Positions 12,901-36,570 of a DNA stretch of 64,000 nt are shown here, in pieces (positions within the stretch are counted from its first letter, which is position 1; the number at the start of each line of letters is the position of its first letter). This stretch comes from Imbricaverruca yamaguchii. Its lineage: Eukaryota > Arthropoda > Thecostraca > Neoverrucidae. Location of the stretch: positions 3,227,001-3,291,000 of the forward strand of contig JAOTOL010001643.1 of assembly GCA_034440575.1 (NCBI GenBank), in the 5' to 3' direction. The translations under genes and the position numbers were made by a program. The notes under the pieces are model-generated. The model made no database searches. It was not told where the DNA came from and saw only the letters and a list, made by a program, of their open reading frames with translations.

Positions 12901-15900
12901 ACTCCATTTAGGTGCAACAGGAGAGTGATTCCAGCAGCTCGGACGACGACGAAGAATCTGCGGCTGAGCCTGAAGCACCCGTCACACAACAACCAAACCA
13001 CGAAGAGCCAATGGCGGCGACAGAGGAATCGACATCAGCAGATCAATCACCAAGTGAAAAAGCATCAGTCGATGCGCAACGACCAAAGAAGACTTCATAC
13101 AATGCAGAATCAGGTTGGTATCTCGTTCGTGTTCTTCCGTTGGGAAATTGTGAACTTCGTAATCTTGTTATCTACTGGCGACCTTTGTACCTTTTGTGTA
13201 TGCATTGCATGTGTCGATGGCATAGCAATATGAGTGACAGCTGGTGCATGTGTTGTTTCAATTTGCTTTTCTGTTCACAAGAGGGGATGGGTAAATGTTG
13301 GCTGTATATCGTTTTAAAATGGCTTTTCTTCTCAGGCTTACTGTAATTACTTTTAACACTTATTATTAAAATCGGTTTCGAGAATAATGTGAATGATTTC
13401 ATGTCACCAGCATATTTTATCCCATCTTGTTTGAAGTTATTTGCAAGCTTTTAATAGAACTAAATCATTCACATGTGAAAAGGGGGCTTCAGCTGATGCA
13501 TGTAAAGTCAATTTCTGCCTGGCATGCCCAAATTCCATGTGATTTGGCTGTCAGGCACCATGTAATCATCATTTGCAGTTTGAATACATGGTAAGGAAAA
13601 GCCCAACTGGATTTAGTGATGTTGCTGTTATCAGGCTATTTTGAGATATGAATGAAAAGGAATGAACAAACCCTATAAGATATCAAAAGCAAGGATGCCA
13701 TTGCTTAACTCAATGCAGTGCACTATGAACGAGGATTATATGTCTAAGCTGGTGACCACTTTCCTGCTGTTCCTTGTTGCTGGGAAGAAACACCAGCGTA
13801 GTAAGTTTTTTTAATCACGCGCTACGCACGACTCACGACCTGTCTTGGCCACAGAACCGCACCTGCAGTACACGCCGCTGACAGTCTGTCTACGCCACAT
13901 CTGCACCTGCAGCACACCCCGCTAACAGTCTACGCCACAGATCTGCACCTGCAGTACACCCCGCTGACAGTATGTCTACGCCACAGATCTGCACCTGCAG
14001 TACACCCTGTTGACAGTCTACGCCACAGATCTGCACCTGCAGTACACCCCGCTGACAGTGTCTACGCGGCAGATCTACACCTGCAGTACACTCCGCTGAC
14101 AGTCTGTCTACGCGGCAGATCTGCACCTGCAGTACACCCCGCTGTCGCGCACTCGAGAGATCCAGGAGGCGCGCCTCAAGCTGCCGATCCTGGCCGAGGA
14201 GCAGCTGATCGTGGAGACGATCCGTGAGAACGCCGTCACCGTGCTGGCCGGCGAGACGGGCTCCGGCAAGACGACCCAGGTGCCGCAGTTCCTGTACGAG
14301 GCCGGATATGCCAGGTCAGTCCGCTCGACTCCCTTCCCCCCCCGCTCCCTCTGCCCGGCCGGATATGTCTGTGCTGTCTTTTCTCTTTAGCGAGCTTATC
14401 TGCTAGCATGCATTACTTAGTGGATTTGGTGAGTCAGACATGGATACGAAGCCTCGCTGGTGACATTGAAGCCGAAGCCACAATAAGGCCACGAAACTGA
14501 AAGCGGCATTCAAAAGTACTTCAAAACCGAATCTGGTAGTTTAGAAATTAAATGAAACTGAAGACTAAAAAAATCCGTGGGTTCGTGTAATGGACTCCGT
14601 TGGCCCCTATCGGCACGAAGCTGGAACCAAATGGAACACTTTGAACATACCTATACAGGTGAAGCTGAACTCAGTAATTCTCAGGTTGTAAAATAATGCA
14701 TAGTGGTACCTGGAGTTGGCTTTGGAAGTCTGAACAAATGATTTCCTCAGTTTTTCTAAGCAATGTTGATTGGGGATAGGAAGTTACAAGGACTCGCCTC
14801 CAGTCATGGGCTACCTAAAAAAAAAATGTGCAGCCTACAGGAGATGGCTGTTGACCTGATATGAGGGAGCAGTCCGGCTTCACGCAGTTTGGTGCGTGCA
14901 ATCTCCCAGTCTCGCACCTGCCGACCCACTGGCGGGTTTATGTTGGGGAAACTTACGCCAGGTTTCAAATTTCATTTAGTAATAGTACATGAAGCCAGGC
15001 TCGTGACTCCGAAGCCCAAGGCATGATCAGTTCACAAAGCTAAGCTCGAAGCCAGAAGCTGACAATGCCACGAAAACGAAGTCAGCGGTTAAAAATGTCA
15101 CGAAGCCGAAGCCGAAGCCAACAGTGAAAATGACAAAACCGAAGCCAATGTCGAAGAATCATGGCTTCACGAAGCCGAAGCCATCTTCATACGAATGTCT
15201 GCAAAGAATTGTGCATTTGACGTACATTTCATGACACGTACATTTCAATTACACTGCCTTAAACGGGTCGTGAGTGAGCTTAATTTGTCCTATGAAGTCT
15301 TGTGTAGAGTATTGAAATATAGCATATGTACTCATACCGCCCACCAGCTAATGATCAAACTGGTCGAAGTGCCCTAATCCCCAAATAACTAACCAGCTAT
15401 AGAGAACGACTACTTTGTATTGTTTCACCATGCTGACATTATGGCGCACCTAAAGATGATTATAAATTAGACTTGTTGTCATAAGATATCTTGGGTGTTC
15501 ATTTGAATTTTGAATTTCAGCTTGATGTGTGCGTCCAGTTGCAGTCAGCACTGACAATGCCGGGCCACTCTGGATTGAACTTCGGAGAGGCGGGCGCGAA
15601 TGATCAACTTTGATCGAAGCGCAATTAAGCCCAAATAACGTAACTCAACTAACTCCGGAGAGGGCCATCGGGCGCATAGGTCCTTCTTGCACGTTGTGGT
15701 CTAGTCAGCCCGATGACCTTGACAGGTTGACCTGTGTCTCTTAATTGCGTGGGTCATGGGTTGGCCGGGTTGTAGCATGTAGGACGACTTTTTACGGCTG
15801 TTCTCAAAGAGCTCATCCAGTAATGCTCAGCATTTGCAACGCTGGATACGATCGAGACAGTGTATAGGCGGGCGAGGGTTTATAGCAGCTGTGGGTTACC

Positions 15901-18900
15901 CTTGTGTGGTTAATTGCATGGAATGGCTTAACATTGCGTAGCCATACCACGCTTGGGCCACCAATGTACAACCACGAGGACAGATGGTCAGACACACCGT
16001 ACATTGCAGTAGCTTTCAAGTACAACAACGGTGGGAGCATTCTGAAGTAACCATTGCATGTTGTCTGACAAGAATGGCCCTCTTTCTACAGCATGATGAT
16101 TCAGAACACTTCACGTTTGCTGTTGTTCTCACAACGAGGAACCATTCGTAACATCTTGATAACTTGTAGTCAAGGTTGGCGCTCCGGCGGCAGCCGTATG
16201 GGAAGAGTGAGTTGCTGTCACTCGGCACATCCGAGCCGCCGCGCCGGCATGTGGCTGACAATGCAGTGGTGGGGGCCTCTGCAGGACGGCTGATGATGAA
16301 ACAGTGTCCAGTTAGTCGGGTGTGCCCAACTAGCCAGATTTCAAAACCAGTGTTTTTCTTCCGCACTATGTTAAGGCAAGAAAGCGGTGGGCTGTCTAAC
16401 TGAGATTCCGAAGAAAAACACGATGGACAGTAAACTAGGCTCGTGCTTAACCCGCACCGTCTTTCCGGTCAGATCCTCACACCCCGTCTCAAGGGGCGAG
16501 GGGCGGTTAGTAACCCCTCTAAAATCCAAACTAAGCATCGCACGAAAACAAAAGAGATGTCATCAGAAAGCGCTCGACGAGTAGGGTCCGGGCCCAACCC
16601 CAAAACAATTTCACCAAAAAGTGACGTCACCAGGGGGGTTAGATTTTCACGACTTACACTATGTTCTTGGCTCTGGGGAGTTCATTTTGGGGATATATGA
16701 AAGAAAGAAAAAATTATTTGGAGTGAGAAAAGGACAGCGAAATCGACCAGGACTTTAATTGTTTTGGCCCCACAATTTTTTTATTTCAAAATTTTGAGTT
16801 CAAGTCTTCTTTATTTTTCCTTTTCCATTGAGTAGAGCAGACCGTGAAACGCTGTTGGAAGTCAACTTGCCCTAATACAAAATGCTTACTTTAGCCAGAG
16901 TCCTCTATTTGAACTGCAATTTGGCAAATACGTAAAATTTATATGTAGTCAAAAACGAAAAAAAGAGAAAAATTCCACTCGTACGTTTTGTTGCATCCCT
17001 AAAGATAAACAAACGCTTAAAGTTTCATAAAAATATCTATCCGTTAAAGCGTGACGACTAGTTGAACTTTTTTGGAGGTGACCTCACGACCTAACTGGTT
17101 GACCCTAGATGACCTGAGGGGACGGGTAGCCTAGGGGTAAGTTGCTCGTCTCAGAATCGAAAGGTTGTGGGTTCGAGTTTCACCTGTCGCTACTCTTCGC
17201 CCGCGACCAATCGGCGTGAGAGATTGGTGACGCTACATGACTCCACGGTCGGTGTGTCGTAAAACCAATAACCAACCTAGATGACCTGACTTCAAAATTT
17301 TGAACCAGCGTGCCAAATTGATGTGGGAAAGGTATGCCAAATTTGGGTGCGCTGCCGCACGCCGTTCGTCCACTATCTGCGAAAAACCTGAGGGGTGGTT
17401 GAAGACCCCCGAGACGGGACGGGTTAAAGCCCCCGAATTGTGTCAGTTTTTTTCCGCTCATATTGGGAGAGAGAAGGGATGGGGAGGACTGGACTACTGT
17501 TAGTAGGATAGTGGGGACTGCAGAACTAACTCACTCTGAGCGATAGGGGGTTAGTTGTCCAAAGGTGGGATGTTTGTCTCCCAACTGAAAGGTTGTGGGT
17601 TCGAATCCCACCTGTCGCTCCCTTTCGCCCTCGACTATTCGGCGTGAGAGATTGGCGACGCTGTCGGACTGAGACTGTAGCGTCGTAAAAACGGCTAACC
17701 TACGAGCTCTGATCGATCGAAATAGGTTAACGTACACGGTCATGCACGCACAGTTTCTACAAGTATGGTTTTGAAGCGGAGTACGATTGGGGCATGTTTT
17801 ACGGGTGGAAATGAGATGCAATGACCAGAAAACGGCTCCACGAATGACCTTCTGCAGATGGAACACCTCGGTGCCTAGTTGGTTTTGACAATATTCGCTA
17901 GGAGGCTATTCCGTTTGCACACGGTCTCTCTGATTTTCTTACCTTGATCGTGATGAAGAACCTTCTACACATCGTTGTCATTGTTGCTTCGGAGCTATAT
18001 TTTGGTTGTGATCGTGGACCAGTGATAAATTATTCGTGAAACAGGGTGGCATATATCACTTTCTGAACGCTCAACCGACATCCGTTTCCAAGAAATATCG
18101 ACATCCTGCTCTTTGGTACCTACACCATCATCCTGAATTTGAGTCTGAGGCATCAAAAGCATTTTAAATGACACTAATTCCATGACAAATTTTGGCATCC
18201 TACTGTGCTCGTTTCGACATCTCACAACCAACGGAAAACCATTATTTTAACCCTGTTGTGGACTGTTAGCTTTTCACATGACTGCTGCCAGTGACCAGGA
18301 GTGATTGTGGTGCCCCCGTCTCCAGGCACCAGGTGATCGGTGTGACAGTGGTGCCCCAGACACTGTCACACCGTATCTGTATCCAGACATCACTGTATCC
18401 AGACACCAGATGATCGGCGTGACAGTGGTACCCCGTCTCCAGGCACCAGGCGATTGGCATGACGGTGGTACCCCGTCTCCAGGCACCAGATGATCGGCGT
18501 GACAGTGGTACCCTGTCTCCAGGCACCAGATGATCGGCGTGACAGTAGTGCCCCTGTCTCCAGGCACCAGATGATCGGCGTGACAGTGGTACCCCGTCTC
18601 CAGGCACCAGATGATCGGCGTGACAGTAGTACCCCCGTCTCCAGGCACCAGATGATCGGCGTGACAGTGGTACCCCGTCTCCAGGCACCAGGTGCTCGGC
18701 GTGACAGTGGTACCCCGTCTCCAGGCACCAGATGATCGGCGTGACAGTGGTACCCCGTCTCCAGGCACCAGGTGCTCGGCGTGACAGTGGTACCCCGTCT
18801 CCAGGCACCAGATGATCGGCGTGACAGTGGTAGCCGTCTCCAGGCACCAGGTGATTGGCATGACGGTGGTACCCCGTCTCCAGGCACCAGATGATCGGCG

Positions 18901-36376: not shown

Positions 36377-36570
36377 GTAACTGCCACACGGCGCCACCCG
36401 AGACCGGTCAGGTCAGGTCAGGTCAACTGACAGGGCCCTGGTGCAGGGCGACGTGTATCCGCCGCTGGCTGAACTGTCCAGGGCGCTGCTGGCGCCGTCC
36501 GCCACCATGACCAAGAGCTGGGCCAGGTAACTGCCACACGGGACCACCCGAGACCGGTCAGGTCAGCTGA
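36291..36570 (+). repeat. 150-bp tandem duplication of the DHX37 exon 18 end and donor
   Basis: 36291-36425 is repeated at 36441-36570 with few substitutions. It includes the last roughly 86 nt of the exon, the donor CCAG|gtaact and following intron. Both donors are intact. Confidence 0.92.

Follow-up and report, generated by a model that had tools for sequence, protein, structure and literature searches.

Tandem arrays at six splice junctions of a barnacle DHX37 gene resemble the 'mirage' minisatellites of lancelets

How do several exon-intron borders of a single gene come to be copied in tandem, and how can such a gene keep its reading frame? The question is raised by a 64,000-nucleotide stretch of the genome of the barnacle Imbricaverruca yamaguchii (GenBank assembly GCA_034440575.1, contig JAOTOL010001643.1, positions 3,227,001 to 3,291,000 of the forward strand; hereafter the window), which contains the gene for DHX37 (kurz). 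The analysis indicates that the arrays are probably junction-spanning minisatellites like the lancelet 'mirages'. They would have begun as tandem duplications at sites of microhomology, gained copies by slippage or unequal exchange and been tolerated by the gene.

Six arrayed junctions in one gene

The exon model, obtained by tblastn with a human guide and by reading of splice sites, places the gene as follows.

9842..40510, plus strand: DHX37 (kurz) gene, 20 exons and 19 introns from ATG to TGA, 1173 amino acids
39115-39212 and 40398-40510, plus strand: last two DHX37 exons

The coding sequence measures 3522 nucleotides (nt) and ends in TGA. The first-pass annotation had counted 17 introns, because it missed the last two exons, which lay beyond its range. 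The window protein is 76% identical to DHX37 of Amphibalanus amphitrite by database search and 77% by alignment, and a partial protein of Pollicipes pollicipes matches it with 81% identity across 73% of the query; among the matches listed, the next after these two barnacles reach only 47-58%. In the protein alignment, the barnacle orthologues cross the arrayed junctions without inserted repeat sequence, with a variable exon 12/13 border, and the partial Pollicipes protein stops short of exon 5 and the start of exon 6.

A 70-nt probe over each of the 38 splice junctions was aligned to the bordering intron and compared with 60 first-order resamplings of that intron. Tandem copies of the junction's own sequence lie in the adjoining intron at six of the 38, namely at the acceptors of exons 5, 6, 13 and 14 and the donors of exons 12 and 18, whose probes score 83-126 against resampling maxima of 24-28. 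The remaining 32 probes do not exceed their own resampling maximum (the nearest being donor 14, at 27 versus 28), where the lack of a copy means none detectable by a probe alignment that is blind to copies decayed to about 55% identity. Tandem Repeats Finder (TRF) and, for the acceptors, copy alignment delimit these six arrays and a seventh within intron 17; the copy numbers listed are those of TRF.

13835..14144, plus strand: acceptor array of exon 5 (exon start 14119), 46-bp unit
18306..20713, plus strand: acceptor array of exon 6 (exon start 20693), 40-bp unit
28872..29213, plus strand: donor array of exon 12 (exon end 28945), 88-bp unit, 3.9 copies
29620..29895, plus strand: acceptor array of exon 13 (exon start 29858), 70-bp unit
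31418..32266, plus strand: acceptor array of exon 14 (exon start 32253), 41-bp unit
35697..36147, plus strand: purely intronic array of intron 17, 51-bp unit, 8.9 copies
36287..36566, plus strand: donor array of exon 18 (exon end 36376), 150-bp unit, 1.9 copies

Upstream of the functional unit lie six copies at exon 5 (functional unit 14099-14144), 58 at exon 6 (functional unit 20674-20713) and three at exon 13. The exon 14 array comprises eight close copies (31899-32225, identity to the functional unit 0.83-0.98) and twelve decayed ones (31418-31898, 0.51-0.69), and older copies possibly reach back to about 31168. The donor arrays contain three exact decoy donors at exon 12 and one at exon 18. 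The array of intron 17 is the single strong array of the gene that lies off a junction, and the probe of the exon 18 acceptor has no match in that intron by alignment.

TRF, the exon model, the barnacle orthologues and the copy-by-copy alignment together establish that the six junction arrays (four acceptors, two donors) proposed in the first-pass annotation are real, with extents that TRF and copy alignment revise. The arrays do not, however, end exactly at the 3' splice site, as had been claimed: the last unit enters exons 5, 6, 13 and 14 by 26, 21, 38 and 14 nt, respectively.

Three observations attach to individual arrays. The exon 6 array holds mechanical open reading frames of up to 784 amino acids on its minus strand (18390-20744), since no stop interrupts the 40-bp unit there, and gene finders could take them for a repeat protein. 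The Pollicipes DHX37 record begins at a methionine inside exon 6 (20693-20879), just past the place of the 58-copy array, and its annotation may be broken by a similar array. Intron 12 is the sole intron with arrays at both ends, and the linker encoded at its exon 12/13 border (28945 / 29858) is the most variable near any arrayed border among the barnacle orthologues, a variability that might reflect past border shifts.

Composition and decay of the units

Each acceptor unit joins the tail of the intron to the head of the exon. Specifically, the intronic tails at exons 5, 6, 13 and 14 measure 20, 19, 32 and 27 nt, and together with the exon heads given above they yield periods of 46, 40, 70 and 41 bp. 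This anatomy and the common register of the copies bear out the proposal that the units are anchored on the splice junction. Scored as NTRAY after the general branch-point consensus, a branch-point-like motif lies at -20 to -24 in all four arrayed acceptors. Counting these four, 11 of the 19 acceptors of the gene have one between -19 and -24. With motif, AG and exon head, each acceptor unit therefore holds what a 3' splice site needs. It had been noted that three of the acceptor arrays share units of 40-46 bp, and their periods of 46, 40 and 41 bp (the fourth being 70) agree; a shared process is nevertheless not needed, because a branch-point-like motif 20-24 nt before the AG and a short exon head add up to about that length. 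Selection may have filtered for units with their own branch point, since without one a duplication would be apt to divert splicing to the first AG, and such filtering would also account for the periods.

The exon 6 array illustrates how complete the copies are. The AG is retained in 58 of 58, and 51 decoy acceptors match the functional site exactly over -8 to +4. Of 51 decoys tried, none keeps the reading frame open, so splicing has to pick the functional copy and the correct choice matters. At exon 14, the old part of the array keeps the AG in 7 of 12 copies and NTRAY in 9 of 12, and the young part keeps NTRAY in 8 of 8.

In all four acceptor arrays the outer copies are less similar to the functional unit than the others (identities of 0.78 versus 0.87-0.91; 0.80 and 0.88 versus a mean of 0.96; 0.89 versus 0.96-0.97; and 0.51-0.69 versus 0.83-0.98). 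The exon-derived part is closer to the functional unit than the intron-derived part in five of five copy sets, with a tiny difference at exon 6 (0.971 versus 0.966), a pattern that would be expected if selection maintains the functional exon head. These data also speak to an artefact of assembly. Long near-identical arrays are often mis-sized, and the copy numbers in the assembly may be wrong; the copies nonetheless carry private substitutions and decay outwards, and six unrelated units are affected with their register kept, which makes it highly improbable that the arrays themselves are artefacts.

Kinship with lancelet mirages

Contrary to the first-pass view that no such gene had been reported, two papers on lancelets describe close counterparts. 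Minisatellites spanning splice junctions, termed 'mirages', occur in the lancelet Adh3 gene, the first case, and in globin genes, where BflGb6 has the acceptor side of exon 2 duplicated and BflGb9 a donor side (PMC3087553); PGBD5 carries repeats at exons 3 and 4, that is, at two places of one gene (PMC3902484). In all six barnacle arrays claimed, the tandem unit likewise contains exon and intron sequence over one border, and the full reading frame and orthologue alignment indicate that the functional border is kept at four acceptors and two donors. The likeness extends to acceptors and donors both being hit, to many copies with AG or GT, to boundary copies that escape homogenisation (PMC3087553) and to overlapping unit lengths (10-72 bp in Adh3 and 150-160 bp in BflGb6, PMC3087553; 40-150 bp in barnacle DHX37). 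Unlike the lancelet cases, the host is a barnacle, six junctions of one gene are affected and one array has 58 upstream copies. Lancelet splicing was checked by reverse-transcription polymerase chain reaction, which suggested that normal splicing persists despite the mirages (PMC3087553); for the barnacle gene, the conserved protein speaks for undisturbed splicing only indirectly. Array instability was seen in the lancelets, whereas the barnacle arrays are known from one sequence. Among the literature matches listed, no arthropod case of junction minisatellites appears. DHX37 is a further mirage-type case in a distant host, with more junctions per gene than in the lancelet genes compared here, and what is new is the arthropod host, the six junctions per gene, and acceptor units that each bear a branch-point-like motif, an AG and an exon head.

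Ordinary intronic minisatellites share the unit sizes, the outward decay and the GC-rich units, and the window has such arrays off the DHX37 junctions. Unlike these, six of the seven strong DHX37 arrays carry exon sequence in register.

A proposed route leads from tandem duplication to new introns: a duplicated exon segment with AGGT becomes an intron. One such case of intron gain is reportedly known from potato. The barnacle arrays are alike in that tandem duplication makes extra splice sites, and they could feed intron gain or alternative splicing, or be left over from either; the full splice sites of the units, with the AG retention and identical decoys at exon 6, speak for such a role, and the authors of the lancelet globin paper suggest intron gain from arrays of this type (PMC3087553). 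In DHX37, however, the unit links the tail of an intron that already exists to the exon head, and the arrays lack upstream exon ends. Donor probes D4, D5 and D13 and acceptor probe A19 have no match in the array-bearing introns, and by these opposite-exon probes none of these intron bodies is a tandem copy of an exon (intron 12 has an array at each end and is uninformative here). Since they do not contain the opposite exon, the arrays are not a duplication of the AGGT type. Together with the failure of all 51 exon 6 decoys tried to keep the frame, this also tells against a link to intron gain or alternative splicing, which is accordingly very unlikely.

Why junctions?

The first-pass annotation had inferred a process that favours duplication across exon-intron borders. 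Strong arrays, defined by a TRF score of at least 110 and a period of at least 30, number seven in the gene, and six of them lie on junctions, where uniform placement of the units, with placements wholly inside exons excluded, predicts 0.50 (P 3.7e-7). Restricting placement to a guanine-cytosine (GC) content of at least 0.55 raises the expectation to 0.97 (P 1.9e-5), and matching to each unit's GC raises it to 1.79 of seven (P 1.9e-4), or gives a P of 6.9e-4 when two weak arrays (15047, 24879) are counted as misses. Sub-rows of the same array were merged, TRF rows 31455 and 31881 counted as one array, rows 11540 (an AT repeat), 24324, 30545 and 38278 were left out, and donor units were placed approximately for GC matching. 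Because DHX37 was chosen on account of the first-pass annotation singling it out, these significances are inflated. Junction arrays beyond placement chance thus uphold one part of the inferred preference, with an excess that shrinks under GC matching.

Composition alone could in principle produce this picture, if minisatellites arise in GC-rich DNA, here the exons, and arrays inside exons are purged so that those at junctions remain visible. Third-position GC is 0.79 in DHX37, exon edges are GC-richer at arrayed junctions (0.70 versus 0.58, P 0.012; P 0.054 for 40 nt on both sides), and GC matching reduces the excess from 12-fold to 3.4-fold, so composition explains part of the junction preference. 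That it explains everything is a serious possibility that falls short of likely: the excess stays significant at either of the GC-matched P values, and the correction by unit GC may itself go too far, since units at junctions include GC-rich exon sequence.

Alternatively, a motif-keyed or splicing-coupled mutational process might favour junction duplication, with a TGAC-type motif, itself branch-point-like, marking the joints. All 13 strong array units of the window contain TGAC/GTCA (6.3 expected), a count that the best 4-mer of GC-matched segments equalled in 0.2% of 1500 resamplings, and in the six junction arrays TGAC lies 0, 0, 6, 1, 0 and 0 nt from the joint (combined rotation P 0.025). 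The motif was, however, found post hoc in the same data; the top words at k=5 and k=6 (8 and 5 arrays) fall within the 95% null maxima (8 and 6); and the units of three weaker arrays outside the 13 (3346, 15047 and 24879) lack it on inspection. At acceptors, moreover, TGAC may be present because splicing needs the motif. Nor does any array unit fold unusually well (z-scores -2.1 to 1.1), and on the same unremarkable values a structural cause in the DNA or RNA of the units was rejected. A process of this kind is therefore rather unlikely. Its boldest form is a barnacle genome-wide process, keyed on a CTGAC-like branch-point motif, that turns junctions into minisatellites and arose independently in lancelets; it has a similarly slim chance of being right. 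If it were, each duplicated unit would be a ready-made 3' splice site, and genes would gather strings of competing acceptors.

A proposed origin

The data are most compatible with a model of mirage-type minisatellites in which a short stretch over an exon-intron border is duplicated in tandem, probably through 3-6 nt of microhomology between intron and exon. The duplication would be tolerated because one intact border persists, as the last copy at an acceptor and the first copy at a donor, and the array would therefore always lie on the intronic side. Further copies would then be added by slippage or unequal exchange, and those distant from the exon would decay. At acceptors, every unit would come with a branch-point-like motif, an AG and an exon head of its own, and splicing presumably settles on the copy nearest the exon by exon definition. 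Part of the junction excess in DHX37 would come from the GC-richness of exon edges, a condition that favours minisatellites. The sequence analysis gave no evidence of a function of the arrays.

Break-site sequence common to exon and intron was read by eye as CTG at exon 13, GTGA at exon 6 and GACGCC at exon 12, which fits microhomology-associated duplication or slippage. Two points weigh against this model. Such microhomology was seen in only three of the six arrays, by eye and without a computed null, and is unclear at exons 5 and 18 and unreadable at exon 14. In addition, the junction excess that is still significant after GC matching may mean that neutral duplication and composition are an incomplete account.

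Neighbourhood of the gene

The window holds further genes and repeats.

37788-38531, minus strand: MDP1-like phosphatase gene, one exon (Pfam Acid_PPase, E 4.5e-47)
44740-45630, plus strand: PTB-domain exon (PF00640, E 9.8e-28)
6410-6568, 17118-17297, 17553-17703, 23424-23570: dispersed repeat of about 150 bp, copies 1-4
24709-24863, 33291-33448, 52854-53032, 63513-63677: the same repeat, copies 5-8

The MDP1-like gene sits inside DHX37 intron 18 on the opposite strand, and the PTB-domain exon belongs to a gene that we take to be NOS1AP-like. No intron border of a flanking gene could be mapped within the window, because the former reads as one exon and a motif search of the window found no further exon of the latter. 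The eight dispersed copies are 74-95% alike. An Rfam search of the window returned only two tRNA-like matches (17547-17622 and 33291-33366), and since two copies overlap them, the repeat is probably a tRNA-derived short interspersed nuclear element. Two stretches of about 1 kb near the two ends of the window (3915-4881 and 61155-62143) form an inverted pair and are 84% alike.

Outlook

The barnacle arrays show in an arthropod a structure that had been described in lancelets and suggest that junction minisatellites may have been overlooked elsewhere. The intron ahead of exon 6, with 51 identical acceptors preceding the one that is used, constitutes a natural test of spliceosome site choice by distance to the next donor. 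Such arrays also make it possible to test directly whether intron gain is fed by duplicated splice sites.

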